From: a virus
Reading direction: 5' to 3' (one strand)
Virus record (IMG/VR): IMGVR_UViG_3300013132_002509
Location: 1 to 30,109 of that record
Length of the DNA stretch: 30,109 nt
Position 1 is the stretch's first letter; the number at the start of each line of letters is the position of its first letter. A program made the position numbers and the translations under genes. This document shows, one piece after another, positions 1,942 through 28,071 of this stretch. Under the pieces are notes generated by a model. That model saw nothing but the letters and a program-made list of their open reading frames with translations. It searched no databases and was not told where the DNA came from.

Positions 1942-1955
1942 TACACTGTGATATA

Positions 1956-2034
<79 letters not shown>

Positions 2035-6560: not shown

Positions 6561-6589
6561 TTGACTTTAGTTTTAGACAAAAGTATAAT
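6561..6589 (+). promoter_or_regulatory. sigma70-like promoter of the large plus-strand operon
   Basis: TTGACT (6561-6566), a 17-bp spacer and TATAAT (6584-6589) precede the ATG at 6599 by nine bases. Transcription should start near 6596, leaving about three bases of leader. This is the only strong promoter seen before the sixteen-gene run. Confidence 0.8.
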
Positions 6590-9037: not shown

Positions 9038-9038
9038 T

Positions 9039-10433: not shown

Positions 10434-11670
10434 TATAGACTACGCGAATCCGCAAGAATTGATTTCTAATAACAAATCATTTTGTATATTGCCTTGGATG
10501 CATCTTTATACTTTTCCGTCGGGCACAGCCTATCCTTGCTGTGTTAGTAAGGTAGATTTGCCTGTTGGTTCTACACGCAAAACAAAACTTATAGATATTG
10601 TCAATAGTGACAGTATGAATCAACTCAGATTGGACATGCTGGCAGGTAGGAAAAATCCTAACTGCGAAACCTGTTATCAGCATGAAGAAACTGGTATTCA
10701 AACGATGAGACAGGGATCTACCTATCAGTATTTCAAACATTTTAAAACTGATGTTGTAGATAATACCAATGAAGACGGCAGTGTTAAAAATTTTAAGATG
10801 CGTTATTTTGATATTAGATTTAGTAATATCTGCAATTTCAAATGTAGAACATGCGGTCCGGACTTTAGCAGTCAATGGGAACAAGAATATAAAAAGAATC
10901 AAATCTATGTTCATCCTATACATAAGAATGATAGACCTGAGTTCTTAGGTGAAGTTCTGGAACATATGCCCACAATAGAAACTGCTTATTTTGCAGGCGG
11001 AGAGCCTTTAATAACAGAAGAACACTACAAGATATTAGAAGAATTAATTAGACTAGGTAGAACAGATGTTGAATTGAGATATAACACTAACCTCAGTGTG
11101 CTTAAGTTTAAAGATAAAGACCTTATCAGTTTATGGAAATACTTTACCAAGCCTATTGATATTGCTGCTAGTATAGATCATTATGGTATTAGGGCAGAAT
11201 ATATTAGGCATGGCACAGAATGGGCTCAGGTAGAGAATAATTTTAGGTCATTAAGGGAACATTCATTTATTAAAATTACAATTAATAGTGTGTTAAGTGT
11301 GTTTAATGTATTAACTATAGAACAGTTTTATAACTATCTAATTAAAAATGGCTTATATACTCCTAAGGACAGAAGTTATTCTATATATAAAATGGTAGGT
11401 CCTAGCCATCTTAGTGCTCAGATACTACCCTCTGCATTTAAGGACAAAGCCGAACAGAGTTTGAACAGGTTAATCGCTCTAATGGAAGCAATGAAATTTG
11501 ACAAACCTAACATTGAGCAGATAAAAACTATTTCGGCATTTTTACGCAGTAGAGACTGTTGGGAAGAAGAAAAACATAATTTTAGGAAAGAAGTTAAACT
11601 AGTAGATGAACTACGAGGAGAAAAGTTTACCAGTACTTTTCCTGAAATTGCTGATCTTATGTGGATATGA
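10423..11670 (+). CDS. N-terminal-twitch radical SAM protein, copy 1
   Basis: The ATG at 10423, with AGAGA seven bases upstream, is preferred over the TTG at 10417; it overlaps the previous gene. The 415-residue product has an N-terminal cluster set FCILPWMHLYTFPSGTAYPC and CETC (Cys21, 39/40, 81, 84). The radical SAM core follows (FDIRFSNICNFKCRTC, Cys137, 141, 144) with AYFAGGEPLI. This layout matches the family often annotated as twitch-domain-containing radical SAM protein in marine phages and bacteria, whose reaction is unknown to me. It is clearly paralogous to the next two genes. Confidence 0.85.
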   Translation: MTTDIDYANPQELISNNKSFCILPWMHLYTFPSGTAYPCCVSKVDLPVGSTRKTKLIDIVNSDSMNQLRLDMLAGRKNPNCETCYQHEETGIQTMRQGSTYQYFKHFKTDVVDNTNEDGSVKNFKMRYFDIRFSNICNFKCRTCGPDFSSQWEQEYKKNQIYVHPIHKNDRPEFLGEVLEHMPTIETAYFAGGEPLITEEHYKILEELIRLGRTDVELRYNTNLSVLKFKDKDLISLWKYFTKPIDIAASIDHYGIRAEYIRHGTEWAQVENNFRSLREHSFIKITINSVLSVFNVLTIEQFYNYLIKNGLYTPKDRSYSIYKMVGPSHLSAQILPSAFKDKAEQSLNRLIALMEAMKFDKPNIEQIKTISAFLRSRDCWEEEKHNFRKEVKLVDELRGEKFTSTFPEIADLMWI

Positions 11671-12911
11671 AAAAGTATATCCCTATTAAAAACAAAGAAT
11701 ATCTTACAAAAGAAAGTAAGGTATTCTGTATGTTCCCTTGGATGCACCTGAATGTAACGCCTAAGGGTGATATATACCCTTGCTGTAGTAATAACTATAG
11801 CACACCCTACGGCAACACTAAAAAGATATCGCTGAAAGAAGCATTTAATCTAGATGAGATGAAACAACTTAGATTGAACATGCTTAGGGATAAACCTAGT
11901 GAGATATGCGAGTTTTGCTACAAACACGAAGAAGCAGGTCCATATAGTTTTAGAACTTATAGTTTAGATCATTGGGCCAAGAGATTCGACGAACTCGTAC
12001 CTTTTACTAGAAAAGACGGTACCCTTGAAGATTTTAAAATGCACTATTTTGACATTAGGTTTAGCAATATCTGTAATTTCAAATGCAGAACCTGTGGTGC
12101 AGAATTTAGCAGTCAATGGGCCGCTGAAAATCGATTGATTAATAAAGACTATCCTATTTTGTTTCATGCCGATGCCAAAGGTAATTTGCTCAAGGAAGTA
12201 TTGACGCATATTGAACATATAGACCTTGCCTACTTCGCAGGTGGAGAACCCCTAATAACAGATGAACATTATATCATACTTGAAGAAATGATTAGGCAGG
12301 GTAGAACTGATATTACTCTAAGATATAACACAAATGCTAGTAATATTAAGTTTAAACAATATGATATTTTAGGACTGTGGAAACATTTTAAAAGAGTAGA
12401 ACTAAGTTGTAGTGTTGATCACTACGGAGATAGAGCAGAGTGGATTAGGCATGGAACAGATTGGGCTCAGGTAGAAACTAATCTGAAGAAATTTAGAAGT
12501 TTAGATTATATAAGTTTTCAAATCAACACAGTGTTCAGTATATTCAATTATCTAACACTGGCAGATTTTTACGATTATATGAAATCAAAAGATCTAGTAC
12601 AATCAAACGATTGGTATCATAGTTTATACCTTGCTGTTCATCCTAGCCATTATTCTGCAAAGAGTTTACCTAAACTTTTGAAACCTATTGCTAGACAACG
12701 CTGCAAGGATTTTATAGACAGGAACGCAGATAGTTATCAAGGCGTGAATAGATTAGTAAGTGATGCTATAGCCTTCGCAGATAACGGTGATACATGGGCA
12801 GCAACACGAGAAGAATTTTTCAAGCATACCTTATACCATGATAAAATAAGGTCAGAAGATTTTAAAAAAACATTTCCGGAACTGGAATCAATAGAGGATA
12901 TGACAGAATGA
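11667..12911 (+). CDS. N-terminal-twitch radical SAM protein, copy 2
   Basis: The ATG at 11667 forms an ATGA overlap with the previous stop and is preferred over the GTG at 11661. The 414-residue protein repeats the layout of copy 1: FCMFPWMHLNVTPKGDIYPC with CEFC (Cys21, 39/40, 81, 84), then FDIRFSNICNFKCRTC (Cys136, 140, 143), AYFAGGEPLI and SVDHYGDRAEWIRHGTDWAQ. Of the tandem set, it is most like copy 1, almost residue for residue around the radical SAM motif. Substrate is unknown. Confidence 0.85.
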   Translation: MKKYIPIKNKEYLTKESKVFCMFPWMHLNVTPKGDIYPCCSNNYSTPYGNTKKISLKEAFNLDEMKQLRLNMLRDKPSEICEFCYKHEEAGPYSFRTYSLDHWAKRFDELVPFTRKDGTLEDFKMHYFDIRFSNICNFKCRTCGAEFSSQWAAENRLINKDYPILFHADAKGNLLKEVLTHIEHIDLAYFAGGEPLITDEHYIILEEMIRQGRTDITLRYNTNASNIKFKQYDILGLWKHFKRVELSCSVDHYGDRAEWIRHGTDWAQVETNLKKFRSLDYISFQINTVFSIFNYLTLADFYDYMKSKDLVQSNDWYHSLYLAVHPSHYSAKSLPKLLKPIARQRCKDFIDRNADSYQGVNRLVSDAIAFADNGDTWAATREEFFKHTLYHDKIRSEDFKKTFPELESIEDMTE

Positions 12912-14194
12912 AAGATGTGGGTCAAATAAAGAAACTTATTAAAGATAGTAAACATTTTTGTGTGCTACCTTGGGTGCATTTTCATTCATGGCCTAACGGT
13001 AAAGTAATGCCCTGCTGTGTAGCAGATAGTGAATTACCTGTGGGCCAAATAAAAGGCGAAGAATCTATTATAGAAATGATGAATAGTGAAAACTATAAAC
13101 AACTTCGCAGAAATATGTTAAATGACGAACCTAGTCCTGAATGTAAACGCTGTTATGACTTAGAATTATTAGGCACCTGGACCATGCGTCAAAGCCATAA
13201 TAAACGCAGAGGTATGGAATATATTGATTTGATTTCAGATACTAATGATGACGGTAGTATAAATGAATTTCAAATGAAGTATATGGATATTAGGTTTAGT
13301 AATCTTTGTAATATGAAATGTCGCAGTTGCGGTCCAGGTTGCAGCAGTCAATGGGCAGAAGAATATGTAAAGAAAAAATGGGGTTATGAACAACTAGAAC
13401 AATTTTTCGGCATGAAAACGATAGTGGTTAATAGTAATGAAGATCAAGTGTTCATGTCAAAATTAAAACCTTATCTAAAGGATGTAACAGAAGTATATTT
13501 TGCAGGCGGGGAAATAATTATTACACCGGAACACTATGAGTGTCTAGACTACTGGATAGCAAATGATCTAACTGAGCAAGTTGAACTGACATACACTACA
13601 AATTTTAGTGTGCTTAAGTATAAGAATCGTGACTTGATTAAGTTATGGAAAAAGTTCCCTAATCTTAAGATATGGGCTAGTTTAGATGCAGGTGGTGATC
13701 AGGCTGAGGTTATTCGCAAAGGATCTGATTGGCCTAGGATAGAATCAAATATTAGAAAACTCAAAGAAGAAGTTCCTCACGCTGATTTTCAAATCACTCC
13801 TACTATAAGTATATGGAATGTGTTTACCTTTCCTGATTTCTTTGATTATCTAGTGGATCAAAATCTATTAGATTTTACTAATCCTAAATGGCAATGCAAT
13901 GCAAGGTTTAATTTACTAACCTATCCATGGTATGCAAATATAATGATTTTACCTCATGATATAAGGATGCGTCTAATGGATAGATGGGCCGAAAGTGCAA
14001 AAAAATATAGTCATAATCAAGATCTTGTTAATTCATTTAAAATGGTTATATATAGTTTAGACCGCGGAGATGAAAATAAGGGCGGCCTAATGGAATTTAT
14101 AAATTATAATAATGAAGTAGATAAAATGCGTAAGGAAAAGATATTAGACATCGTACCAGAACTAAAAGAGGTTTATGAATGGGTAAAAAAATAA
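12908..14194 (+). CDS. N-terminal-twitch radical SAM protein, copy 3 (divergent)
   Basis: The start forms an ATGA overlap with copy 2. The 428-residue product keeps the N-terminal cluster set (FCVLPWVHFHSWPNGKVMPC, CKRC; Cys18, 36/37, 79, 82) and the core MDIRFSNLCNMKCRSC (Cys134, 138, 141). The SAM-binding segment reads YFAGGEIII, without the Pro found in the GGEP of its sisters. The SxDHYG segment is changed to SLDAGGDQAEVIRKGSDW. These changes suggest a different substrate. Confidence 0.83.
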   Translation: MKDVGQIKKLIKDSKHFCVLPWVHFHSWPNGKVMPCCVADSELPVGQIKGEESIIEMMNSENYKQLRRNMLNDEPSPECKRCYDLELLGTWTMRQSHNKRRGMEYIDLISDTNDDGSINEFQMKYMDIRFSNLCNMKCRSCGPGCSSQWAEEYVKKKWGYEQLEQFFGMKTIVVNSNEDQVFMSKLKPYLKDVTEVYFAGGEIIITPEHYECLDYWIANDLTEQVELTYTTNFSVLKYKNRDLIKLWKKFPNLKIWASLDAGGDQAEVIRKGSDWPRIESNIRKLKEEVPHADFQITPTISIWNVFTFPDFFDYLVDQNLLDFTNPKWQCNARFNLLTYPWYANIMILPHDIRMRLMDRWAESAKKYSHNQDLVNSFKMVIYSLDRGDENKGGLMEFINYNNEVDKMRKEKILDIVPELKEVYEWVKK

Positions 14195-15186
14195 TCCCTA
14201 TAGTAGATAAAAAGTTAATTGCCATTACTTCTAAGAGCAAGTATATGGCGGTTACCTGGCAGGTAAACAATTATTGTAATTTTAAATGCAGTTATTGTAA
14301 TCCAGGTAACTGGGCTGGTACTGATCTTAATAATGGTAATTTAGGTCTATATCTATATAACTTAGAAGAGATTATAACAAAGTATAAGGCCGCAGGCTAT
14401 GAACATTTTAAGTTTTTCTTCAGTGGTGGCGAACCTACTGCATGGAAAAACTTTATTCCTATTTGTGAATGGCTCAGAAAAGCATTACCTGCTTGCACAC
14501 TGGCAGTTAATACTAATTTAAGTAGACCTTTGAACTGGTGGCAGAAATATTATCATTTGTTTGATGATATTGTGGCTAGTTTTCATGTTGAATTCAGTGA
14601 TAAGAAGCGTTATGAGGAAAACAGTATTTTCTTATGCGATAAGATAAATTACCTTGCTACCAAAATGCTCATGCATGAAGAAAGATTTTGGGAAGTTGTA
14701 GAATATGGAGAGTACCTAAAAACTGTAATGCCTAATTATTTTTTAGAGTGGACTCCGTTATTTGATGAAATGACCGCTGAGGCTAAGCCTTGGGAATATA
14801 AAGATTCTGCCAAAGTAGAATTTCTAAAGACTCATAACTATGATCAAAAACAAACTCTACTTAAACCACAAAAGCATAATCACTGCGTCAGTTACAACAT
14901 GTACGATGACGAATCTACTATTCATACAAATAGCAATGATGTTATTATTAATAGGCAAAACTTCTTCAAGGGATGGACCTGTAATGTAGGTGACGCTATT
15001 TTTATTAATCCAGTAGGATCTGTTAGTCTGGCAAGTTGTGGACAGGGCGGCTATGTAGGTAATATTTTAAAAGATGTGGAAGGCATAGGTCCTAAAGAAA
15101 TTATCTGCGGGAAGGAGCACTGTCACTGCGGCACAGACATAATTATCCCCAAACGTTCTCCGGAATATAATGCCTATAATCAATAG
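14179..15186 (+). CDS. radical SAM protein with C-terminal SPASM/twitch-like cysteines
   Basis: The 335-residue protein has its core motif near the start (VTWQVNNYCNFKCSYC; Cys33, 37, 40) and KFFFSGGEPTAW. Its C-terminal region carries Cys268, 287, 310, 315 and 317 (GWTCNVG, SLASCGQG, IICGKEHCHC), enough for an auxiliary cluster. This is the usual domain order, unlike the four preceding genes. It overlaps copy 3 by 16 bases and the next gene by 17, so the genes are tightly coupled. Substrate is unknown. Confidence 0.82.
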   Translation: MGKKIIPIVDKKLIAITSKSKYMAVTWQVNNYCNFKCSYCNPGNWAGTDLNNGNLGLYLYNLEEIITKYKAAGYEHFKFFFSGGEPTAWKNFIPICEWLRKALPACTLAVNTNLSRPLNWWQKYYHLFDDIVASFHVEFSDKKRYEENSIFLCDKINYLATKMLMHEERFWEVVEYGEYLKTVMPNYFLEWTPLFDEMTAEAKPWEYKDSAKVEFLKTHNYDQKQTLLKPQKHNHCVSYNMYDDESTIHTNSNDVIINRQNFFKGWTCNVGDAIFINPVGSVSLASCGQGGYVGNILKDVEGIGPKEIICGKEHCHCGTDIIIPKRSPEYNAYNQ

Positions 15187-16339
15187 CAATAGATATTTTT
15201 TTGTCAATACGGATAGTGTGGATTTAAGATCCAGGACTTTTTATGTTAATCTAAAAAAAGATGATCCTATTGAATATTACTATATGGAATATTTTTCTTC
15301 TAGAGGATTTCTTAAATTTCCTATAAAAAAATTATTAACGTCCGAAATTTATTATAGAGTTTGCAACGATCCTAACTTCATGCTAATATTGAATAATACG
15401 CATGAAGCATTTCATGCTGTGGTACCACACTTATATCATCACATAGGATTAATAGGAGAAATTCCTCCGGAAAAAGTTATTATTGTAAGTGAAAGTGCGG
15501 ATTTGCATGAAGTTATAAAAACCTATGCAGATGAAAATAATTTTAGACCGTTCAATGTAGAATGGTTTACATTATTTAAAAAAGGTCTCCAGGATGATTT
15601 TGCATATCAGGAAAGTTTAGGACCTGTTAATATAAACACTTACCAGCAAAAAAAGTACGAAAAGATTTATTTAAATTTTAACAGACGATGGAGAACGCAT
15701 AGATCACTCCTTGTGTCGTTATTAGTGGCATCTGGTGTGCTTGATAAGGGATTTGTTAGTCTAGGAAAAAGTGATATGAGTTCTACACTCGGGCATGTTT
15801 TCGAAGGACTAGTTAATTTTGTCAAACCTAACCTTTTCCTTTATAATTCACTTGTTGAAAACAGAGATAAAATAAATGACGTAGAATGGTTATACTTAGA
15901 TACCGATGATCTTGTAACAAATCGTGCCTCACTAGATATTAACACACTAAAATTTTATGAAGATAGTTTAGTTAGCATTGTTTCCGAAACTAATTTCTTC
16001 ACAGACGGTGAGGTAGGTAGATTTCTTAGTGAAAAGACCTGGAAACCTATTCTATTAAAACACGCATTTATAATAGTGAGTGTTCCTAGGATGTTGAAAT
16101 TATTGAGATTACAAGGATATAAAACCTTTCATCCTTTTATTAATGAAAGTTATGACGGTGAGTTTGATCCTCTTGCTAGACTGGAATTAATTGTAAAGGA
16201 AGTTGTTAGATTAAGTAATATGACATATGTAGAACAACAGGATTTTATTACAAATGTTACTCCTATTGTGGAATATAATCATAAACGATTCCTTAATGAT
16301 ACAAACTATCTAAAGAAATATTATGTTAAAACAGATTGA
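15170..16339 (+). CDS. glycosyltransferase-like protein, paralog A
   Basis: The 389-residue protein shares its C-terminal third with the gene at 18344-19477: a segment like VSIVSETNFF, then SEKTWKP, HAFIIVSVPRMLKLLRLQGY and KTFHPFINESYD. The E-T...E-K-T pattern recalls the nucleotide-sugar site of GT-B enzymes such as GT10, but the match is loose. Surrounding nucleotide-sugar and glycosyltransferase-like genes favour that reading. No membrane segment is seen. Function is inferred, not shown. Confidence 0.45.
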   Translation: MPIINSNRYFFVNTDSVDLRSRTFYVNLKKDDPIEYYYMEYFSSRGFLKFPIKKLLTSEIYYRVCNDPNFMLILNNTHEAFHAVVPHLYHHIGLIGEIPPEKVIIVSESADLHEVIKTYADENNFRPFNVEWFTLFKKGLQDDFAYQESLGPVNINTYQQKKYEKIYLNFNRRWRTHRSLLVSLLVASGVLDKGFVSLGKSDMSSTLGHVFEGLVNFVKPNLFLYNSLVENRDKINDVEWLYLDTDDLVTNRASLDINTLKFYEDSLVSIVSETNFFTDGEVGRFLSEKTWKPILLKHAFIIVSVPRMLKLLRLQGYKTFHPFINESYDGEFDPLARLELIVKEVVRLSNMTYVEQQDFITNVTPIVEYNHKRFLNDTNYLKKYYVKTD

Positions 16340-17123
16340 AAGTTTAGACTTATCGAAGTATAAACGTTTTTTTGCCTTTGGCTGTAGTTTTACAGGTTAC
16401 ATATGGCCTACGTGGGCTGATGTGCTTGCCGCAGAAATGCCGCATACTGAATATTATAATTTTGGCAAGTCAGGGGCAGGGAATTCATTTATAATTTCTA
16501 GGCTTGTTGAATCTAATTTAAAATTAAATTTTAATAAGAATGATTTAGTAATCATTATGTATTCTACCTTTTGTAGAGAGGATAGGTATATCAGTAATCA
16601 ATGGCAAAATCCCGGAAATATTTTTACACAGGGGTTTTATGATAATGAATTTGTCAATAAGTATGCAGATCCTAAAGGATACTTCCTGAGAGATATGAAT
16701 TTGATGACAACGGCCTTAGGATATTATAATAATTTATTGTGTGATGTAATACCGTTGATGTCAATTCCTTACAACTATCAGAATGAAAATGACCCTTCTA
16801 TACTACCTATTATAGAAGCATACTATGATACAAAACAGAGCACACCACCTTCACTATTAGAATTAGAAATGAACATGCAGTTTTTACCTCATGGGCATTG
16901 TTATCACTGGCATAATGATAAAGAGTTATTTCAAGATTATCATCCAGGTCCTATGAGATATAGGAATTACCTAGAAAAAATAGGATTTCCTTTGACGAAT
17001 AGGTCGTTGACATCTATTCTAGAGGCTGAGTTCAAATTAAAACAAACTAGGACTAGAAATGAAATTATACAGATTTTTCCTGACTATACAGAAGGTACAA
17101 AGAATTATACAAACTGGTGGTAA
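16323..17123 (+). CDS. SGNH-like hydrolase/acyltransferase, copy 1
   Basis: The 266-residue protein has FAFGCSFTG near the N-terminus (block I with the candidate nucleophile Ser22 in G-C-S) and NFGKSGAGNS (blocks II/III, Gly and Asn). A C-terminal DYHPG supplies Asp205 and His207 of a possible catalytic triad. SGNH enzymes de-acylate or acylate sugars, among other reactions. In this glycan-type cluster, an O-acetyl esterase or transferase role is plausible. It overlaps the previous gene by 17 bases. Confidence 0.6.
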   Translation: MLKQIESLDLSKYKRFFAFGCSFTGYIWPTWADVLAAEMPHTEYYNFGKSGAGNSFIISRLVESNLKLNFNKNDLVIIMYSTFCREDRYISNQWQNPGNIFTQGFYDNEFVNKYADPKGYFLRDMNLMTTALGYYNNLLCDVIPLMSIPYNYQNENDPSILPIIEAYYDTKQSTPPSLLELEMNMQFLPHGHCYHWHNDKELFQDYHPGPMRYRNYLEKIGFPLTNRSLTSILEAEFKLKQTRTRNEIIQIFPDYTEGTKNYTNWW

Positions 17124-17153
17124 TTAATTAAATACACTGTTAATGAGGATAAT

Positions 17154-18347
17154 ATGAAGAAAATCGCAATGATCGGATTAGGTAAACTAGGCTTACCCTG
17201 TGCAGAAGTAATGGCAAATCATTATGATATTACAGGCTTTGATATAAATGAAGTTGTATCGGATAAAGTTAGAGTATGTGCCACGATTCAGCAGGCAGTT
17301 CAAGATAGAGATATAGTTTTTATTGCTGCTCCTACTCCGCATGACAGTTTATATGGAGGAGAAACACCTACCAGTCATCTTCCTGTCAAAGACTTTGATT
17401 ATACAATAGTATCCGACATACTCAATGAAGTTAATCGTTATGTTAACAATAATCAATTAGTTGTTTTAATTTCTACAGTGTTACCAGGCACGGTTAGAAG
17501 TCAACTACGAAATAAAATTAGCAACGCTAGATTTATCTATAATCCGTACCTTATCGCTATGGGAACAGTCGCATGGGATATGGTTAATCCGGAAATGGTC
17601 ATTATAGGTACGGAAGATGGTACCATTACAGGTGATGCTGCTGAGTTGATAGAATTCTACAAGGTCTTTATGGAAAATGATCCAAGGTATGAAGTAGGAA
17701 CCTGGGACGAAGCCGAATCTATCAAAATCTTTTACAATACTTTTATATCTACAAAGATAGCATTGGTCAATATGATTCAGGATGTAGCAGAGGCTAACGG
17801 TAATATTGACGTTGATGTGGTCACTAGGGCCTTATCCAGAAGCACACATAGGATTACAGGACCTGCCTATATGGTAGCAGGAATGGGTGATGCAGGAGCC
17901 TGCCATCCCAGGGACAACATCGCTTTACGATGGATGGCAAGAAACTATAATTTAGAATATGACCTGTTTGATGCCATCATGAAGGCCCGAGAAGTGCAGG
18001 CAAAAAAACTTGCAGAAAAATGTTTATCGTATGGTAGCAATGTCCTCGTAGTAGGTAAAGCATATAAGCCTGCTGTTCCTTATACTAACGGAAGTTATAG
18101 TCTTTTGGTAGGTTACTATATTGAAGAATTAGGCGGTAAAGTAGCCTACCATGATCCTAATACAGGCGATTTAGTAGATTGCCTAGATCCGCGATACCAA
18201 GTAGTTCTTATAGGATACTGGGAGAAATGGGTAGAAGAACTTAAATTTAATATTCCCGCAGTAGTTGTTGACCCATGGCGTAAGATAACACGCGACCAGC
18301 ATTCTGGTTTAATAGTGCATTATGGTAACTCTAAAAAAAAGGAATGA
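17154..18347 (+). CDS. nucleotide-sugar dehydrogenase (UDP-Glc/GDP-Man DH family)
   Basis: The 397-residue protein has the NAD-binding start MIGLGKLGLP (residues 6-15), ISTVLPGTV, the helix with Lys201 (FYNTFISTKIALVN), and GMGDAGACHPRDN with the candidate catalytic Cys250. GKAYKPAVPYTNGS in the third domain completes the family pattern. Such enzymes oxidise a sugar-nucleotide C6 alcohol to a carboxylate in two NAD-dependent steps. The active-site loop differs from the common GFGGSCFPKD form, so the substrate is uncertain. It has a GAGGAT ribosome site after a 30-bp gap, the longest in the operon. Confidence 0.85.
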   Translation: MKKIAMIGLGKLGLPCAEVMANHYDITGFDINEVVSDKVRVCATIQQAVQDRDIVFIAAPTPHDSLYGGETPTSHLPVKDFDYTIVSDILNEVNRYVNNNQLVVLISTVLPGTVRSQLRNKISNARFIYNPYLIAMGTVAWDMVNPEMVIIGTEDGTITGDAAELIEFYKVFMENDPRYEVGTWDEAESIKIFYNTFISTKIALVNMIQDVAEANGNIDVDVVTRALSRSTHRITGPAYMVAGMGDAGACHPRDNIALRWMARNYNLEYDLFDAIMKAREVQAKKLAEKCLSYGSNVLVVGKAYKPAVPYTNGSYSLLVGYYIEELGGKVAYHDPNTGDLVDCLDPRYQVVLIGYWEKWVEELKFNIPAVVVDPWRKITRDQHSGLIVHYGNSKKKE

Positions 18348-19477
18348 GATATCCTAAGGAATATCATTTTGCCCTTTATTATGACTTTTTTGAAATATTT
18401 CCTAGATTACTGCCTTTACGTGATAAGATTAAAGTAATCTACGCTGGCACTAACAACCATCATTGTTTCTTAAATAGAACACTATCTGACATAGTTGAAG
18501 AGGTACAAGAAGCAATAGAAGAAGGAAATCAGTATTTCATTTTTGATAACTCCTCAGAAACTTTTATGACAGAGTTTTACGAAACTGTAGTTAAAGTTTC
18601 TAAGTATTTTCCATCAATACCTACTCATAATTTATATTATGCAACAGGTTGTTTTCCTGTGGCAGAATTATTTTACAAATACTTTAATGGTCCTCCGGAA
18701 GTAAACCTATTGTTTAGCGTTAACCAGATAATTAGAGGTATCCGTAGGGTAGAAAATATTAAAGATATACTACCACCTTATGAAGTAAGAATTAAAGAAA
18801 AACTGTTTTTATGTTATAATAAAATACCTAGACCTCACAGGATTTTTACTTTTGCATATCTTTCAAAAAACAATTTATTGAATAAAGGTTTCTTCTCTTT
18901 TCATGGTAGAAATGATTTTGTTCAAGAAGTTTTTACTAGACCTTACTACCCAACCTGGATAAAAAATGAAATAGCCAAACATATTAAACATTTGCCATAT
19001 ACTTTAAATACAGGACCGTCAAGAGAAAATCCTATCGATATTATAGAAGATGATTTTATACATTTCACTGAGAGTTATTTTAGTATAGTCAATGAAACTA
19101 CCTGTTTTGAGGATAATAAAACCTTTAATGTTATGATGCAATCTTATATTAATATGCCATTTTTAACAGACAAAACTGTGAAGGCATTTATAATGAAACA
19201 TCCTTTCATTGTGAATGCCAGTCCACGTTTTTTACAATATCTAAGACAGATAGGATATAAAACATTTCATCCTTATATAGATGAATCATATGATATCATA
19301 GAAGATGATAGTGCTAGAATAGATGCAGTGTTTAAAGAGATATCAAGGCTATGTGAAAAAACCCACGAAGAATGGCTAGAATGGCAACAAGCAGTAAAAG
19401 ATATTGTAGAACATAATTTTCAACTAACTTTTGAAATGACTAACTTTGAACTAAAGAAGGAGCAATATGGATTTTAA
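18344..19477 (+). CDS. glycosyltransferase-like protein, paralog B
   Basis: The 377-residue protein starts in an ATGA overlap with the dehydrogenase gene. Its C-terminal third parallels the gene at 15170: SIVNETTCFEDNKTF, TDKTVKAFIMKHPFIVNASP, FLQYLRQIGYKTFHPYIDES. The N-terminal two-thirds are much less similar. The shared block recalls GT-B nucleotide-sugar sites, but no family is recognised with certainty. It probably acts on the same product as paralog A. Confidence 0.45.
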   Translation: MRYPKEYHFALYYDFFEIFPRLLPLRDKIKVIYAGTNNHHCFLNRTLSDIVEEVQEAIEEGNQYFIFDNSSETFMTEFYETVVKVSKYFPSIPTHNLYYATGCFPVAELFYKYFNGPPEVNLLFSVNQIIRGIRRVENIKDILPPYEVRIKEKLFLCYNKIPRPHRIFTFAYLSKNNLLNKGFFSFHGRNDFVQEVFTRPYYPTWIKNEIAKHIKHLPYTLNTGPSRENPIDIIEDDFIHFTESYFSIVNETTCFEDNKTFNVMMQSYINMPFLTDKTVKAFIMKHPFIVNASPRFLQYLRQIGYKTFHPYIDESYDIIEDDSARIDAVFKEISRLCEKTHEEWLEWQQAVKDIVEHNFQLTFEMTNFELKKEQYGF

Positions 19478-21719
19478 TTTACGAAGTTTAGCAAAGGAAA
19501 ATCCTGTAGCACCTGATAGGCCTACAGAAGATATTGCTGATTTAAGACATCGTAGTATGATGGAGGCCATCAAGCCATTTGCCAAGGCCACTGTACAAAA
19601 GAATCTTACACCTGTATATGTTGATTATAAAACAAGAAATACAAAACTCGTGTTAGTCTTATGTCCTGAATGGGCTCCACAGTTTCCGCCTTTCAATTTA
19701 GCAAGACTTAGCGGTGTGGCAAAAACTGCGGGTTATGAAACACACATAATGGATCTTAATGTTCGTGCCTATAATGAATATAGGAATAACTGGAGACCTA
19801 ACAAGTTATTACCTTTTAGGCTATGGGATCCGAGTGCGAGTTGGCACTGGTTAGGCGATACATATATGAAGGACATCCATCCTCTGCTAGAGCCGATACT
19901 GGAAAATGCTGTACAAGAAATTCTAGCGATGAACCCTCAAATAGTAGGATTTAGCATTTATTATATTAGCGAAGAACCTACAAAATGGATGTGTGCTAGA
20001 TTAAAAGAACTGGCTCCACATATAAAGATTGCTGTAGGCGGCAGTAATGTACAAAAGAGTTGGTTTAATATTTTTAATTTCTATGACTATGTCGTTAATG
20101 GTGAGGGTGAACAGGCCCTGTTGAATATTTTAGAAGAAGTTGAAAATGGTGTACATCATGATAAGCCTCAGTATATAAGTCAACCAGAGGATCAGCGCAT
20201 AAACATCAACGGACTGCCTATGCCCGATTACGAAAGCATAGACTTTAGCCAGTATGAAATACCTAACGGTGTTAACAGTGAAATTAGTAGAGGCTGTACG
20301 GCTAAGTGTACCTTCTGTGAAGAAACACATTTCTGGAAATATAGGCAACGACAGGCAGTAGACCTAATCACAGAAGTAGAATGGTTATACTATAATAAAG
20401 GTGTTGATATCATATGGTTTATCGACAGTCTTGTTAACGGCAATCTAAAAGAACTTCGTGCGTTTTGTCTTGCTGTGGCAGCAAAAGATTTAAAAATACA
20501 TTGGACAGGGTATAGTAGATGTGACGGCCGTATGGACCTTGAATATTTTAAAGACCTCAAGGCTGGCGGGTGTATAATGTTAAACTATGGTATAGAGTCC
20601 GGTAGTCAGAAGGTGCTAGACGATATGGCCAAGGGTGTTACTATTGCTGAGATGGAGCAAAACTTTATTGATGGTAAGAAGGTAGGAGTATTTGCTGCCA
20701 CTAATTGGATTGTGGGCTTCCCCACAGAAGATTTTCAAGACTTTGCAGACAGTATGACATTTTTATGGCGTATGCGTAATGAAAATATTAACAATGTAGG
20801 AGCAGGTGTAGGTTATGGGCTAGGTCCTGAAACTATTGTAGGACAGAATCCACATAAGTTTAATGTTAGTTGGCACAAGTATCAGAACCACTGGATCACA
20901 CAAGACTTTACCAAAGGCGGAACGCATGTTATGCATCGTGTGAAGACTTTTCATATGTTCTTAGACCTAATGAAAGGTTGTACTGATATTCCATTTGGCT
21001 ATCCGGTACGAGATAATCTAGTAAAAGAACACTATAAAATAAAACTAGATGACCCCAGTCTATTAAGAGATGTAGATTATGAAAAGTTTGATTATAGAAT
21101 AATCAACCCTAAAATTAGTCCGTTTGCTGATACACTCGTTAATGAGATGTGGCCTTTCTTTAGAATGCTGTGGAAGGCCAGAGGAGCATATGCAGCAGAA
21201 GTATATTTTAATCCTGAAATTGATTTAAAAGAGTTTGGTAATCAATACGGTCCGGGTATGCTGACTGCTGTGTATAAATTTACTATTAATCACGATGGCC
21301 AATGGGATGCAGACTTTAGTTATGATTTTAAACAGGTACCTAACCCTTATGACAATAGATTACCTAGACCATGGGGACGAAAAGGTCCTTTTTATGCACA
21401 GGATTATAGTAGAATGATGAGTAATACTGCTGTAAGAGCAAGACGATTAGCCAAGCCTAGTTGGAGCACAGATACAGGTCGCAGCCAGACTGACTTCGGT
21501 GAATTATTAAAAGAAGAAGAATATCTAAACAAACATATTAATTTTACTTTTAAATATCATTATACAGGCAAAGGAGATTGGAGCGACCATAAGAACTTTG
21601 CCATTGAAGTGCCCAATGTGTCTGCGGTGATTTTGCCTGAAAAAGAAGCAATGAACTTTGATCAACCTAAATCAAAAAGTGTTTTTATAACCAACATTAA
21701 GCGTAAATCTACTGTATGA
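19467..21719 (+). CDS. B12-binding-domain radical SAM protein (class B type)
   Basis: The 750-residue protein starts after AAGGAG. Residues about 55-245 form a Rossmann domain of cobalamin-binding type (LVLVLCPEWAPQFPPFNLAR, AGYETHIMDLNV, IVGFSIYYIS, IKIAVGGSNV, VVNGEGEQALLNIL) without an obvious DxHxxG, as is usual for this radical SAM class. The core motif is GCTAKCTFC (Cys277, 281, 284) with YGIESGSQKVLD downstream, followed by about 300 residues of unrecognised C-terminal sequence. Such enzymes often methylate unactivated carbon or phosphorus centres, and some do other chemistry. It overlaps both neighbours. Confidence 0.85.
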   Translation: MDFNLRSLAKENPVAPDRPTEDIADLRHRSMMEAIKPFAKATVQKNLTPVYVDYKTRNTKLVLVLCPEWAPQFPPFNLARLSGVAKTAGYETHIMDLNVRAYNEYRNNWRPNKLLPFRLWDPSASWHWLGDTYMKDIHPLLEPILENAVQEILAMNPQIVGFSIYYISEEPTKWMCARLKELAPHIKIAVGGSNVQKSWFNIFNFYDYVVNGEGEQALLNILEEVENGVHHDKPQYISQPEDQRININGLPMPDYESIDFSQYEIPNGVNSEISRGCTAKCTFCEETHFWKYRQRQAVDLITEVEWLYYNKGVDIIWFIDSLVNGNLKELRAFCLAVAAKDLKIHWTGYSRCDGRMDLEYFKDLKAGGCIMLNYGIESGSQKVLDDMAKGVTIAEMEQNFIDGKKVGVFAATNWIVGFPTEDFQDFADSMTFLWRMRNENINNVGAGVGYGLGPETIVGQNPHKFNVSWHKYQNHWITQDFTKGGTHVMHRVKTFHMFLDLMKGCTDIPFGYPVRDNLVKEHYKIKLDDPSLLRDVDYEKFDYRIINPKISPFADTLVNEMWPFFRMLWKARGAYAAEVYFNPEIDLKEFGNQYGPGMLTAVYKFTINHDGQWDADFSYDFKQVPNPYDNRLPRPWGRKGPFYAQDYSRMMSNTAVRARRLAKPSWSTDTGRSQTDFGELLKEEEYLNKHINFTFKYHYTGKGDWSDHKNFAIEVPNVSAVILPEKEAMNFDQPKSKSVFITNIKRKSTV

Positions 21720-22456
21720 AAACTTGTATTATATCAGGATGTAGCCATACCGCAGGGTCTGAAATAGATGGAACTGAAGACAGCGCCTACAACAGGTCAA
21801 TGAGTTTCGGAAATCAATTAGCAAGGAAGTTAGGCTATATGCCTAAAAATATTGCTATTACGGGCGCAAGCAATCAAGGTATCGCTAGAAGTATATTAGA
21901 ATATTTTAAAAAGAATACAGTTGAATACGATAAAACTTTTGTTCTGATAGGCTGGACAGATAGTACACGCATAGATTTACCTATAGACTGGAACGGTAAT
22001 TACGAAGACGGCAACAGGGCTGTAGACTGGTATTCTAAGACTGCTAACGACTATCTAAGGGTAAACATGGGTTGGCCAGGTACATTTGAAAGAGAAATGC
22101 GTATGATAAAGAATGCTCAGGATTTCATAGCGCATAATACAAGTTATTTAGAGATAGTTTCTGCCAACTTGGTTTTACAGATGCAATACTTTTTTAAATT
22201 ACACGGTATTGAATATCTGATGTGTAATACACAGCATGTCTGGAGTCCTGCTTATCAATTAAATTTATATTTTGACTTTTTTGATAAAACTAGATACATG
22301 GATTTTTACGAAAACGAACAGTGCTTTTATTGGAAATACAAAAACTTAGGTCACGATAATCCCTCAGCCAAATACGGACATCATGGTATAGAACCACATA
22401 CCTTGTATGCTGAAGAATTATATAACTTTATGCAATCTAATCTACTAATTAAATGA
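21716..22456 (+). CDS. SGNH-like hydrolase family protein, copy 2
   Basis: The 246-residue protein begins MKTCIISGCSHTAGSE (block I, candidate Ser10), then ITGASNQGIARS (blocks II/III with Gly50 and Asn53). Near the end, GHHGIEPHTLYAEEL could provide the catalytic His. It is only distantly like copy 1 at 16323. The start forms an ATGA overlap with the B12-radical SAM gene, and the stop does the same with the methyltransferase-like gene. It probably edits acyl groups on the cluster's product. Confidence 0.55.
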   Translation: MKTCIISGCSHTAGSEIDGTEDSAYNRSMSFGNQLARKLGYMPKNIAITGASNQGIARSILEYFKKNTVEYDKTFVLIGWTDSTRIDLPIDWNGNYEDGNRAVDWYSKTANDYLRVNMGWPGTFEREMRMIKNAQDFIAHNTSYLEIVSANLVLQMQYFFKLHGIEYLMCNTQHVWSPAYQLNLYFDFFDKTRYMDFYENEQCFYWKYKNLGHDNPSAKYGHHGIEPHTLYAEELYNFMQSNLLIK

Positions 22457-23001
22457 TTACTGTTAATAAAGATGCATTTAGCAGCGGACAAATCGGCAGC
22501 AAGTTATGGCTTGTTGAACAGTTAGAAAAATCCTTTGAAAGCATTGATAGTATATCAATCTATGGCGGATGGTATGCTGTAACGGCTTTTTTATTACTCA
22601 CTAGAAATAATATAAAAATTAATAAAATTAAAAGTATAGATGTTAACCCTGAGTGTGAATCAGTAGCAGATATGATTAACGAATTTTATGTGTGGCAGAA
22701 TTGGAAATTTAAAGCCTTTACTGCTGACTGCAATAAAATGCTATATGAACCTGCGGATCTAATTATTAATACGAGCACAGAGCATTTCGACTCAACGGCA
22801 TGGTTTGATAATATTCCTGAAGGTACCTGTGTTGCACTTCAGGGTAATAATATGATACATGACGACCACTATAGTCAGTTTAAAAGTCTAACTCATTTTA
22901 AGAAAACTTATAAATTACAAAATTACTTGTTTCTTGGGGAAAAGAAGTTTAAATACCCTAACTGGTCATTCACTAGATATATGAGCATAGGAATCAAATG
23001 A
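22453..23001 (+). CDS. class I SAM methyltransferase-like protein (182 aa)
   Basis: The fold pattern is Rossmann-like: ISIYGGWYAVTAFLLL (motif I, residues 35-50), SIDVNPECESVADM with Asp63 as the acidic residue that would bind SAM ribose, and DLIINTSTEHFDSTAWFDNI as motif IV. The glycine motif is Y-G-G-W rather than G-x-G-x-G. The target is unknown. ATGA overlaps join it to genes on both sides. Confidence 0.6.
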   Translation: MITVNKDAFSSGQIGSKLWLVEQLEKSFESIDSISIYGGWYAVTAFLLLTRNNIKINKIKSIDVNPECESVADMINEFYVWQNWKFKAFTADCNKMLYEPADLIINTSTEHFDSTAWFDNIPEGTCVALQGNNMIHDDHYSQFKSLTHFKKTYKLQNYLFLGEKKFKYPNWSFTRYMSIGIK

Positions 23002-23489
23002 ATTTAATTGCTATCCCTACACGATTTAAAGATAATTTTATTAATATTCCCAACAGTGAAATATTATGGACAGATTGTACTAGATCTAAAACTTTATTCG
23101 AAAATGTAACTAGATGCGGATTAGAAATAGAATACGCTCTACTTGATAACGGAAAAACTATATTATGGACTAACACTCCTAAATATACAACTGCTTGTAT
23201 TATATGGGATGATTGTGACATAGATCAGTTTACTACTGCGTTAACAGCGTGGGAAAAACCTCGTGGCGATGAAATAATTTTTAACCAACTCCATATGGAC
23301 CACCCTCGTGGATGGGCCATAGGTAACCCCAGGTCTATTATTAAATGGGCAGCATGTGCCCTTACATTAGAATATTTAGATGCTAATTGTTTTCCTGAAC
23401 CTAAAAAGCAGGATAGTTTTCAATATCCAACTTCTCGGTTAGTATGGCTTGCTTATAGAATAGGTTTAAAGGTTTATGGCATACACTAG
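22998..23489 (+). CDS. hypothetical protein (163 aa)
   Basis: I do not recognise this protein. It has no signal peptide or membrane span and is rich in Trp and Cys (WTDCTRSKT, IIWDDCD, HMDHPRGWAIGNPRS). The frame is supported by its ATGA overlap upstream and a 14-base overlap with the next gene. Its place between a methyltransferase-like and a glycosyltransferase-like gene suggests the same pathway. Confidence 0.7.
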   Translation: MNLIAIPTRFKDNFINIPNSEILWTDCTRSKTLFENVTRCGLEIEYALLDNGKTILWTNTPKYTTACIIWDDCDIDQFTTALTAWEKPRGDEIIFNQLHMDHPRGWAIGNPRSIIKWAACALTLEYLDANCFPEPKKQDSFQYPTSRLVWLAYRIGLKVYGIH

Positions 23490-24324
23490 AAAAAATTGTG
23501 TTTTTATAAGAGGGGCAGCAAGGACCTGGAATTACTTAAAACATAATTCCATCGCTGTTTTACAAGAATACTACAATAATCCGGATTTTTATGTACTAAT
23601 GACAAACAATGGTACGGTTTCATTAGAATCTTTACAGCAAGATTTTAATGGAGTTAATGCAGTTTGTATAAAACTTATTTCTCATAATGAAATTGTGCCG
23701 TTTGGTATAGAAACTAATAGCACCGGTTGTTTAAAATGGCAGGACTTTAGTACCAATTATTGGAGAATGGCTTGGTATGATTATGTTCTTGAATTAGAAA
23801 AAAGAAAGTATGAGATTGAAAACAATATAAGGTACAGTTTCACTCAATTTGTTCGCCCTGATTTGTTATTAAGAGCAGGAACTCCTCCCGAAGTCGATGA
23901 TATGGTCCAGGACCTTCATGGAATAGTTAGCGATAATGTGTATAATATAGACACAGATAGTTTTAGAGCCAATGACATAGTTTATGTGGCAGGTTCTAGA
24001 GCAAGTACAATACATAATTTCAGATATTTTGATAGTTATTATACAGATGGGATACCCAATCAAATGGTTATAGGCGACCCTGATAAAATAGCCGAATATC
24101 TATTTAGAAATCATATAACGTTTCCAAAAAAAACTTTTGGTGCGCCCGGCGGTCCATTCTTGCGACCTAGTAGTGTAGAATATTATCAAATTATGCAAGG
24201 AAATTTAGATGTTTCTCAACTCTATAAATTACAGGAAGAATGGCAAAATATGAATGTAGAACAAAGACAATATCACTGCGATAAGGTAAGCATATCACAT
24301 TTAGATTATAGTTACAGATTATGA
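23476..24324 (+). CDS. glycosyltransferase-like protein, paralog C
   Basis: The 282-residue protein is a paralog of the next gene. Shared blocks are the N-terminal strand CVFIRGAARTWNYLKHN, TQFVRPDLLLRAG and YVAGSRAS with YFDSYYTDG. Similar F/S-x-R-G-Q-x-R-T-W starts with a later R-P-D motif occur in capsule and phage proteins that I associate with glycosyltransferases; no classic DxD is obvious. It overlaps the preceding gene by 14 bases. Function is inferred from resemblance and context. Confidence 0.5.
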   Translation: MAYTRKNCVFIRGAARTWNYLKHNSIAVLQEYYNNPDFYVLMTNNGTVSLESLQQDFNGVNAVCIKLISHNEIVPFGIETNSTGCLKWQDFSTNYWRMAWYDYVLELEKRKYEIENNIRYSFTQFVRPDLLLRAGTPPEVDDMVQDLHGIVSDNVYNIDTDSFRANDIVYVAGSRASTIHNFRYFDSYYTDGIPNQMVIGDPDKIAEYLFRNHITFPKKTFGAPGGPFLRPSSVEYYQIMQGNLDVSQLYKLQEEWQNMNVEQRQYHCDKVSISHLDYSYRL

Positions 24325-25142
24325 ATAAAATAGCAGTTATTTTTAGGGGACAGATGCGTACATGGAAATATCTATGTGAGCATAATATTCGAGTTATTCG
24401 AGACAGTTGTAAAAAAGATATAGATTGGTATTTTTGTTATCCTGAAACCACAACTACAACCAAAGAAGAAATATTATCCTTGTTTGATGCAAATGAAACT
24501 GTTAAAATTAATGTGGTTAAAGACGAAAACTATGCTTTGTACGGAGAAGGAAACAAAGGGTTAGAATGGAATAAATTCGGGGAAGCATATTTTAGACAGG
24601 CATATTTTGAATATCATGCAGGAGTTACAAAGCGTCAGCATGAACTAGAAACCGGTATTCGATATATTAATACATTTGCCATAAGGCCCGATTGCCTTTT
24701 ATATCCTGGAGATTTTAAAAACTATCCATTATCTTGCGAACTGAGCGGGTATATGAGGTCAGAAGAAACAGCAGGAGACCTAGTAGGGGCAGATTTTCAT
24801 TATGTGGCAGGTGACAAGGCCGCTAATCTAATGTCTATGCGATACCTAGATACTTTCTTCACTGATGGATTCAACCAGGCTAGACATGCAGGAGATTTGA
24901 ACCTGCCACAATATTACATCAGATCTAATTTTATAAGTCAAAATGATGAAAAGGCTTTTTTTGGCTACAGGCATATAAGACCTATACACATACCTTTTAT
25001 GCAGGACCTACAACAATTTACGGATAATCTTGACCATTTCCTGGAACTTTTAGAAGTTTGGAGACTAACTGAAATATCCGAACTAATTAGAATTTGCCAA
25101 AATTATGCTATAGATATTAGAGATTATTCATTAAAACTATAA
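24321..25142 (+). CDS. glycosyltransferase-like protein, paralog D
   Basis: The 273-residue protein matches paralog C throughout: AVIFRGQMRTWKYLCEHN, FAIRPDCLLYPG, HYVAGDKAANLMSMRYLDTF and FTDGF. It starts in an ATGA overlap with paralog C and is the last gene of the plus-strand run from 6599. A 95-bp gap with new regulatory signals follows. The pair probably arose by tandem duplication and may add successive sugars. Confidence 0.5.
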   Translation: MNKIAVIFRGQMRTWKYLCEHNIRVIRDSCKKDIDWYFCYPETTTTTKEEILSLFDANETVKINVVKDENYALYGEGNKGLEWNKFGEAYFRQAYFEYHAGVTKRQHELETGIRYINTFAIRPDCLLYPGDFKNYPLSCELSGYMRSEETAGDLVGADFHYVAGDKAANLMSMRYLDTFFTDGFNQARHAGDLNLPQYYIRSNFISQNDEKAFFGYRHIRPIHIPFMQDLQQFTDNLDHFLELLEVWRLTEISELIRICQNYAIDIRDYSLKL

Positions 25143-25819: not shown

Positions 25820-26156
25820 AGTTGAAAGAGCAGTCGGCAATGTAGGCAATTTTATTGCACACATTCCTACACATACATGGGAATTCTTAAAGAATCATTT
25901 CGGCAGAATTAGTGCTCATACATTAGGGTGGCTGACTATAGTATTATTGCACTTTGCTAGTATTCCTACTCTGTTGGCAGTTCTTATGGCACAGAATGAT
26001 AAATTGCCTCCTGTTGACCTTATGATATTTGTATGGAGTGGTTTGATAACTTTCTTTTTCAAAAGCCTAATCGAACGTAACTTTTTATACATTGCTACTA
26101 TTTGTTTAGGCTTTGCTGCTCAGACAGTGATAATGAGCCTTATAATGTTTAAGTAA
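25794..26156 (+). CDS. three-span membrane protein, candidate holin (120 aa)
   Basis: The frame extends back to 25731, but TTG 25794 has AAGGTGG at six bases and gives a soluble, charged N-terminus, so I prefer it. Three hydrophobic segments are seen at about residues 44-66, 73-91 and 97-118, ending MSLIMFK. Size, membrane character and overlap with the cell wall hydrolase fit a holin, but this is inference. The 3' end overlaps the convergent radical SAM gene by eight bases. Confidence 0.6.
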   Translation: MDDISSTSKVERAVGNVGNFIAHIPTHTWEFLKNHFGRISAHTLGWLTIVLLHFASIPTLLAVLMAQNDKLPPVDLMIFVWSGLITFFFKSLIERNFLYIATICLGFAAQTVIMSLIMFK

Positions 26157-28071
26157 GTCTTACTACTTCTGCCTTACCAAAATTACGCTTTCTACCAAAA
26201 TATATATTTTCTAAAAAACTTTCGAAAGTTAAGTTTACCCTATCGTTATATAGAAATTTATATGTCGATGGCTTTTCTAAGTCTTCGTTAAAATTCAAAT
26301 AACCCACGAAATCGTTTGCAAATGAATATTGCTTAGGATAACTCTTAAGGTCTCTAAAGTCTATCACATAATTACGCTGAAAATTATAAAGTTCCAATTG
26401 TAGTTCTTCTTCAATATAGTTCTTGCTGTCTAGAAAGTCTTTTATCAGGCCGAACATATGATCCAGTTTGTCCTCATGATATAACTTTAATGTTGTACTA
26501 TGAAATAGATTCCACCCATGTATTTCAACTTTACCTAAACTGGGATAACCTATTCTACCTTCGTTGAACCATTTTATAAAGTGTTTTGTTACAGTAGATT
26601 CTTCTTTGGCAAACCATTCATCCTTGCAGACAAACTGGTAAAGTTCTTCATAAAAGTCTTCATAGGCTATATCTTTATACTTGTTTAAAAATCTTGCTAT
26701 GTATGTGGTTAATCCGTTTATATGAAATGTCTGTATGAACCAGTTAAAGATTAGACATTCCATCATATCTTCAAAAGGCATGGATTGAGTAGACTTTACA
26801 ACTTCAACAGATTCTGCTATTTCACCTGCCATATAACTACCACTCATATAATCATAGACAGGTACACTTTGAATTTTATATAGTTTACGCTGAACAAGAT
26901 TCATTTCGGCATTTTCTAATAACTGTGCCTGAAAGATGTTTATACCTGTGTGATTGCCTGCTCTAAATATATCAAATAAATTCTTCTTCCAGGTTTCTTT
27001 AGTTTCGCCTGGTAAGCCTAAAATTACCTCAGTATATACTGGTACATTATTTTTAGCACAAATGTCAAATATCTTGTCTATCTTATGCTGTGAAAGATTC
27101 TTACGCTTAATGTTCTCTAGTACATCAAGATCCATGCTTTGTACACTAACTGTTAGTCCTTGATTATAGTTCGGACTCTTTATTATCTTGAATACTATAT
27201 CAAAGACTTCGGGCTTTTGATCCTTTGCCCAAGCCATGCTGAAACTATAAGGGTACCCGTATTTGGCCTGTACTTCTAATAACTTATCAGCAATTAGATT
27301 ATCTCTCTCAACAAACATACCGAAGTTAGCATCACAAAAGGTAACAAAGCCGCACTTGTTCTTCCCTGCCCATTCTAGTTCAGCAAATACCTTTTCCAGG
27401 CTAAATTTTTTAACCTTATTATAGGTTAGACTACCCCAGTCACAGAAAGTGCAGGCATATGGACAACCTCTATTCGTTTCAATGGTCATGTTCCATTCAA
27501 CACCAGTAGTTTCAGCCATGACTTTATCAAATATACCTGTAAGGTAAGGACTCGGTAAATCTTCTAAGGACTGTATTCTGTCTGCATCTGGTGTATTAAT
27601 TGCTTCACCATTTTGATTTATAGTTAGACCTTTTATAGTGTCAAATGGTGCTCCGACCAAGAAGGCTTCGAGTAGGTCTTTAAATATTATTTCGCCTTCC
27701 GACCTTACTATTAGATCGATAAACGGTAACTTAACAAACACATCTTTTTTCGTATGCGGCATTTCTGGACCACCGAATATTATTAAGATGTTGGGATTTA
27801 TTTCTTTTAACTGTCTCGCCAGTTCGTAGTTATAGTTCTTATTCCATACATAGGCACTAAAGGCTACGATGTCATCATTGCGTAATCGTTCAACGGCCTG
27901 ATGCATAGGTTCTCTACTCCACATGATGTGGTTTAGAGTATATGATTCTTTTAGACTAGGAAATTGTTGTATATAGGACCATAAAACACCTACACTATAT
28001 GGCAAATAGTAGGCATTAAATTCTTTAGGTCCTTGTTGATAATTAGGCTGTACGAGACTTATTCGTTTCAT
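26149..28071 (-). CDS. B12-binding-domain radical SAM protein
   Basis: ATG 28071 overlaps the iscA stop (ATGA) and is preferred over the start at 28098. The 640-residue protein has a cobalamin-type Rossmann domain ([65 protein letters not shown]), then [16 protein letters not shown] (Cys203, 207, 210), LTVSVQSMD and [17 protein letters not shown]. The C-terminal 200 residues are unrecognised. This pattern matches B12-dependent radical SAM families, several of which are methylases, others not. It is the last gene of the iscU-HEN-iscA operon, so it may be the main local client of that machinery. Confidence 0.85.

Follow-up and report, generated by a model that had tools for sequence, protein, structure and literature searches.

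A sixteen-gene phage cluster rich in radical-SAM enzymes as a candidate system for glycan assembly

What does a virus make with a closely packed row of glycosyltransferase-like and radical S-adenosylmethionine (SAM) genes? We addressed this question for a 30-kb virus fragment from IMG/VR (record IMGVR_UViG_3300013132_002509; its full 30,109 nucleotides are called the window here), the genes of which are named by their start positions within the window. A sequence-only reading had singled out positions 15170–25142 as a glycan-type pathway, and the ten open reading frames (ORFs) of that region all exist, on the same strand and overlapping or at most 30 nucleotides apart. The unit had been understated: these genes are the downstream half of one plus-strand run of 16 genes (6599–25142) whose neighbours overlap or are separated by no more than 30 nucleotides, and whose upstream half comprises the 812-amino-acid protein 6599 and five more radical-SAM genes (9039, 10417, 11661, 12908 and 14179). 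From what was observed of the enzymes present, their folds, their degree of conservation and the genes to which they are linked, all described below, we consider it probable, though by no means assured, that the run directs phage glycan assembly with radical-SAM tailoring.

Four of the upstream radical-SAM proteins (9039, 10417, 11661 and 12908) score above the curated cut-off of 170 bits for NF033640, the N_Twi radical-SAM family (scores in Table 1), and 14179 lies below it at 33.2 bits. The CxxxCxxC motif was read directly in seven proteins, as CNFKCGYC, CNFKCRTC (twice), CNMKCRSC, CNFKCSYC, CTAKCTFC and CPYACTFC, and the homologue of 14179 follows that of 12908 in 46 loci of relatives as well as in locus L125 of the bacterial phylum Bdellovibrionota. 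The description of 19467 as a B12 radical-SAM enzyme is borne out by its Pfam B12-binding and Radical_SAM domains, and its sequence makes C-methyltransferase activity likely; the best NCBIfam model is a C-methyltransferase of ribosomally synthesised and post-translationally modified peptides (RiPPs; TIGR03975), matched locally at 105 bits, below the cut-off of 281.85.

A second B12 radical-SAM type, represented by 26149, lies within the same cluster in 21 of the 43 relatives with full flanks. In the window, 26149 sits just downstream of the run together with two A-type iron–sulphur (Fe-S) carrier genes and an IscU-like gene, and such nearby Fe-S assembly genes may support the many Fe-S enzymes. 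The carrier that overlaps the start of 26149 suggests a phage-encoded Fe-S supply for the radical-SAM set. The usual C-terminus of the window's iscU (HCSILAEDAI...) continues in another frame, and the copies in L010 and L034 are intact; an intron was considered as the cause, with no Rfam intron detected, and a simple frame break fits. Membership of a defence system was likewise set aside, since viperin and PDC-M51A models were matched only weakly, at superfamily level.

Scanning IMG/VR with 19467 yielded 186 stretches encoding relatives, of which we studied 80 (63–76% identical to 19467; 57 lineages at 95%), while 50,697 phage records gave one weak match only. The contigs of these relatives reach 364 kb, the three longest carry 7–11 radical-SAM genes each, and a T4 portal was found in 12 of 15 tested; the carriers are T4-like, large-genome uncultivated phages. 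Across 11 contigs, median pairwise identity was 84% for the T4 portal, 77% for 19467 and 73–81% for 11661, 12908 and 14179, compared with 72% for the dehydrogenase, 42–55% for the SGNH genes and 30–35% for the GT-B glycosyltransferase genes. Because the identity of the radical-SAM core is close to that of the portal and that of the GT-B genes is so much lower, the comparison indicates that the core stays with the phage lineage and that glycosyltransferases are replaced over time.

The relatives' loci also hold genes outside the gene set of the window fragment. Of the 80 loci, 46 have a carbamoyltransferase, 34 an amidinotransferase most similar to streptomycin StrB1 (E 2.7e-63 to inosamine-phosphate amidinotransferase), 30 a short DegT aminotransferase and 11 RmlC. 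Further SGNH genes and giant repeat proteins recur as well, and tail-fibre-type genes flank the cluster. DegT and the amidinotransferase occur together (18/2/2/21, p 5e-8) and the dehydrogenase and RmlC are mutually exclusive (p 0.006), both p-values ignoring shared ancestry; on these patterns, the tailoring modules behave as sugar pathways would. The DegT protein of L072 (6218–6805) has only 196 amino acids and keeps a lysine segment of the SFxxKxxLxxGxGG type. The giant repeat proteins span about 1,400–2,500 amino acids (L050, 17924–22249; L016, 17102–22234; L009, 16282–21150), some of their units resembling degenerate GT-A halves, and their main family adjoins the carbamoyltransferase (co-occurrence p 8e-8).

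Glycosyltransferase assignments rest on structure prediction. Proteins 15170 and 18344 are 32% identical over 239 amino acids, and their family, collected through the gene neighbourhood of 19467, is represented in all 43 full-flank loci. The model built from a 54-sequence alignment (AlphaFold predicted local distance difference test, pLDDT, 94.9) has two Rossmann-like domains; among PDB folds it comes closest to OtsA and glycogen synthase (E 1.6e-4, probability 0.98–1.00), at template-modelling scores of only about 0.4, which support the fold class and no named family. With all listed PDB neighbours being GT-B enzymes, both proteins are predicted to be GT-B glycosyltransferases. Protein 6599 begins with seven repeats of about 67 residues and ends in a domain with a near-invariant DGD at 634–636. 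Its model (pLDDT 85) finds SunS first (best E 3.7e-5) and ThuS, both S-glycosyltransferases, followed by other GT-A enzymes, with all listed matches of GT-A type; by its modelled fold and its DxD motif alike, the C-terminal domain is predicted to be a GT-A-like glycosyltransferase.

The sequence-only reading had regarded paralogous pairs as the organising feature of the cluster. Alignment upholds two of them, 15170/18344 and 23476/24321 (the latter 27% identical), yet pairing appears incidental, as relatives carry from one to five GT-B paralogues. The latter two proteins have no relative in family libraries, phage records or the IMG/VR scan, and peptide-pattern scans for close relatives of 15170, 23476 and 24321 returned one or none. 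An RPDLLL motif in 23476, which we take as a lead only, would fit a GT-A-like enzyme. The SGNH-like genes do not form a pair: 16323 and 21716 give no BLAST alignment and an hhalign probability of 8.7%. Protein 16323 has a GCSFT block, with GCS, D205 and H207 invariant, and matches GDSL_2 weakly (17.3 bits against a Pfam cut-off of 32.9); protein 21716 has a GCSHT block, with GCS and a late H228 invariant, and its Pfam scan gives no match. For 22453, called methyltransferase-like, there is no significant Pfam match, and the likeness is a judgement from a motif; its homologue in Bdellovibrionota locus L137, which looks glycan-related, is 29% identical (E 6e-18).

The claim that 17154 is a nucleotide-sugar dehydrogenase holds, in that the protein is a divergent member of the nucleoside diphosphate (NDP)-sugar dehydrogenase superfamily. 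It belongs to phrog_9148, its nearest annotated relatives being proteins of Synechococcus phage Bellamy (59%) and of Pelagibacter phage HTVC008M (48%). As a four-electron UDP-glucose/GDP-mannose 6-dehydrogenase it scores 155.3 bits against the NCBIfam model TIGR03026, below the cut-off of 189.8. Alignment with human UGDH shows that 17154 retains the catalytic Cys, Lys, Asn and Asp; C250, K191, N195 and D254, equivalent to Cys260, Lys204, Asn208 and Asp264 of S. pyogenes, are invariant in 17 aligned sequences. Two further positions are replaced. Glu141 (human E161), a critical residue adjoining the invariant Pro140 (PMC4794789), gives way to Tyr in 40 of 41 phage proteins and Phe in one, the segment reading NPYLIAMG for NPEFLxEG; Tyr10, 98% conserved and assigned to thioester hydrolysis (PMC4794789), is Lys (GxGKLG) in 40 of 41. 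The structure of the human E161Q mutant holds a thiohemiacetal (PMC3184952). Since both residues, conserved in acid-forming enzymes, are missing from 17154, acid formation by this enzyme is in doubt and the proposed oxidised, acidic sugar is weakly founded. A route in which the dehydrogenase stops at the aldehyde and DegT aminates the resulting dialdehyde was not supported by co-occurrence with DegT (p 0.22).

Early expression had been read from a sigma70-like promoter at 6561, and this argument does not stand. The site matches 11 of 12 pattern positions, promoter-like sites in the region are at chance level (93, against 85.3 ± 8.8 in shuffles), transcription from 6561 would start about 3 nucleotides before the ATG, and relatives carry late octamers. 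As TTGACT/TATAAT also stands upstream of the 6599 homologue in L055, its start likewise close to the ATG, the promoter may be real, saying nothing firm on timing. In relatives, 15 of 63 occurrences of TATAAATA, which we take to be the T4 late-promoter octamer, have an ATG exactly 5 nucleotides downstream; the window contains none. Among the genes so preceded are those for the dehydrogenase, carbamoyltransferase, DegT, a radical-SAM protein, IscU and IscA (in L010, L018, L034, L054, L056, L062, L067 and L072, among others). This spacing suggests near-leaderless late mRNAs and favours the view that, in relatives, some genes of the cluster are expressed late.

A bacterial counterpart is found in Bdellovibrionota, the phylum of a Halobacteriovoraceae genome, where 78 of 291 genomes hold homologues of 9039, against none of 398 genomes of the Neorhizobium phylum. 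A standalone 6599-type glycosyltransferase occurs in L124, L131 and L137, beside a 9039 homologue and GT2 genes in L124 and L137, and homologues of 12908, 14179 and 9039 stand together with a short 10417-like gene in L125 and L135. GT2 is the commonest Pfam family around such genes (9 of 66 neighbours), and an Amino_oxidase/GLF match in L137 hints at a mutase and no more. Bacterial B12 relatives of 19467 were rejected as a matching system, being distant (at most 29%) with the best, in L086, outside a matching locus. One 20-kb Bdellovibrionota chromosomal locus, L129, holds about nine radical-SAM genes.

The features of the run and its downstream neighbours are collected in Table 1. Elsewhere in the window lie a cell-wall hydrolase gene (PF07486; 25238–25819, plus strand) with an N-terminal hydrophobic stretch, 60–74% conserved in L010, L019, L020, L034 and L038; tRNA-Leu (taa) and tRNA-Met (cat) genes at 1855–2034 (minus strand); and a gene at 4797–5557 (minus strand) that looks frame-split, its two overlapping ORFs corresponding to one continuous start in L038.

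Table 1. Positions, strands and supporting evidence of the genes in the run and just downstream of it (window coordinates).
Feature	Positions	Strand	Evidence
Seven tandem ~67-residue repeats + predicted C-terminal GT-A-like domain (VDGDA)	6599–9037	+	First gene of run; repeats, DGD, fold matches
Radical SAM, N_Twi family NF033640	9039–10433	+	313.5 bits; CNFKCGYC motif
Radical SAM/SPASM, N_Twi family	10417–11670	+	390.4 bits; SPASM + Radical_SAM
Radical SAM/SPASM, N_Twi family	11661–12911	+	374.3 bits; SPASM + Radical_SAM
Radical SAM/SPASM, N_Twi family	12908–14194	+	372.4 bits; SPASM
Radical SAM without N-terminal SPASM	14179–15186	+	Pfam Radical_SAM E 2e-7
Predicted GT-B fold glycosyltransferase family member	15170–16339	+	AlphaFold pLDDT 94.9; PDB fold matches
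SGNH/GDSL-like hydrolase or acyltransferase (GCSFT ... DYHP)	16323–17123	+	Weak GDSL_2 E 0.007
Divergent NDP-sugar dehydrogenase (phrog_9148)	17154–18347	+	PHROG E 5e-97
Second predicted GT-B family member	18344–19477	+	E 1e-27 with 15170
B12-binding radical SAM protein, 750 residues, likely C-methyltransferase	19467–21719	+	B12-binding + Radical_SAM domains
Second SGNH-like protein (GCSHT ... PHxLYAEEL), separate family	21716–22456	+	Invariant GCS, H228
Putative class-I methyltransferase-like protein	22453–23001	+	Motif; homologue in Bdellovibrionota glycan locus L137
Protein of no assigned function	22998–23489	+	No relatives found
Orphan paralogue 1, possible GT-A-like enzyme	23476–24324	+	E 4e-26 with 24321
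Orphan paralogue 2	24321–25142	+	Paralogue of 23476
Second B12 radical SAM, KedN5-like	26149–28098	-	NF033712 258 bits, below cut-off 700
A-type Fe-S carrier	28068–28394	-	PF01521 E 5e-19; overlaps start of 26149
IscU-like Fe-S scaffold, frame broken near C-terminus	29256–29582	-	PF01592 E 8e-42
Second A-type Fe-S carrier	29667–29990	+	PF01521 E 1e-19

In the pathway that we favour, 17154 would oxidise a sugar nucleotide at C6 and the radical-SAM enzymes would modify sugars or the growing glycan, with 19467 performing C-methylation and the N_Twi enzymes epimerisation, dehydrogenation or cross-linking. Assembly would fall to the GT-A protein 6599 and the GT-B proteins 15170 and 18344, SGNH-type enzymes would trim or acylate the glycan, and the product would be placed on the host envelope during infection. 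By analogy, the host envelope is the most likely destination, a virion glycan being the next choice, because the cluster has tail-fibre-type neighbours and resembles pelagimyophage islands, cyanophage lipopolysaccharide (LPS) clusters and polysaccharide-type loci of Bdellovibrionota. What survives of the earlier proposal is thus a glycan-type pathway, carried by the GT-A and GT-B folds, the sugar-tailoring neighbours and the linkage of radical-SAM and glycosyltransferase genes in bacteria and phage; the acidic product is doubtful and the early timing unsupported. More speculatively, and in our view improbably, the N_Twi enzymes could be a large and hitherto unrecognised sugar- or glycan-modifying class common to Bdellovibrionota and phages, in which case at least six radical-SAM enzymes, a dehydrogenase stopping short of the acid and, in relatives, amidino-, amino- and carbamoyl-transfer of the aminoglycoside type would build a surface glycan with guanidino, carbamoyl and C-methyl decorations.

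Several points weigh against glycan assembly. The literature searched assigns no substrate or product to N_Twi radical-SAM enzymes, SPASM enzymes are best known for acting on peptides, and the acceptor glycosylated by SunS, the top fold match of 6599, is a peptide. The window yielded no identifiable polymerase, flippase or ligase, the radical-SAM arrays of Bdellovibrionota loci L127, L133, L134 and L136 sit among non-sugar genes, and shared ancestry may enter the co-occurrence p-values. Some of these points feed a different explanation, in which a peptide or virion protein undergoes RiPP-like modification by the radical-SAM enzymes before the glycosyltransferases decorate it, the product being a modified virion glycoprotein. 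The nearest NCBIfam SPASM/twitch and B12 radical-SAM models are often peptide maturases, peptide S-glycosyltransferases are the closest fold matches to the GT-A domain of 6599, and repeat proteins and tail-fibre-type genes adjoin. We nevertheless judge this unlikely: the carbamoyl-, amidino-, DegT and RmlC enzymes are indicative of sugars, and the Bdellovibrionota counterparts have polysaccharide-type GT2 genes as neighbours. Nor was any candidate for a precursor peptide noticed, a weak argument as ORFs below 80 amino acids were not called in the loci.

A sugar product need not be a glycan, and the StrB1-like amidinotransferase, DegT and carbamoyltransferase of the relatives do resemble aminoglycoside tailoring; a soluble aminoglycoside-like small molecule is nonetheless highly improbable, as a cyclitol synthase was not seen, those three enzymes are missing from the window fragment, and several glycosyltransferases with tail-fibre neighbours better suit a surface glycan. 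Nor do we give much credence to hypermodification of phage DNA with unusual sugars, comparable to the T4 glucosylation of hydroxymethylcytosine by GT-B enzymes. The T4-like lineage, the presence of GT-B enzymes and the occurrence of UDP-glucose dehydrogenase in phage SP-15, which is known for hypermodified DNA, would be in keeping with such a role. It is rendered very unlikely indeed by a glycosyltransferase set too variable for one base modification and by bacterial counterparts that are chromosomal; also, near-complete relatives have a single PF00303 protein each, a strong match to the thymidylate synthase model (345–360 bits), which leaves no hint of a separate deoxycytidylate hydroxymethylase.

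Phage glycan clusters are already known and, as a rule, rely on ordinary sugar-nucleotide enzymology. In the present cluster, a core of multiple radical-SAM genes is kept almost as strictly as the portal while glycosyltransferases turn over, implying that radical chemistry is what selection protects. For the N_Twi family, the clusters suggest glycans as a concrete and testable kind of substrate, and predatory bacteria offer a chromosomal counterpart that might also be a clue to the host, possibly a member of Bdellovibrionota. Between them, the Bdellovibrionota loci L124, L125, L135 and L137 share homologues of 9039, 12908, 14179, 22453 and the 6599 C-terminal domain, with GT2 in two of the four; they differ in being chromosomal, in having no close homologue of the 750-residue B12 protein (best 29%) and in 6599 homologues without repeats.

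Among phages, Vibrio phage K566 (OZ196521) similarly interleaves N_Twi-type radical-SAM genes with two GT8 genes, but its radical-SAM proteins are only 20–30% identical and it has no B12 radical-SAM, dehydrogenase or 6599-type match. Group II Campylobacter phages, compared by description alone, are reported to encode five radical-SAM proteins, in an account that mentions no relation to glycosyltransferases (PMC12398825). The LPS clusters of cyanophages P-SSM2, S-SSM7 and S-SM2 (PMC3037559) and the sugar operon of Bellamy are likewise T4-like, with sugar-nucleotide genes and a carbamoyltransferase; Bellamy has the closest annotated dehydrogenase, but no radical-SAM array is annotated in its operon. 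The pelagimyophage host-recognition island, a hypervariable region with tail fibres, glycosyltransferases, UDP-glucose 6-dehydrogenase and radical-SAM cassettes (PMC7029224), offers the same kinds of genes in a T4-like phage with tail-fibre neighbours. GT8 is its main glycosyltransferase family (PMC7029224), whereas the families described here are without a Pfam match, and in the present cluster about six radical-SAM genes, including the B12 enzyme, are conserved at a level near that of the portal.

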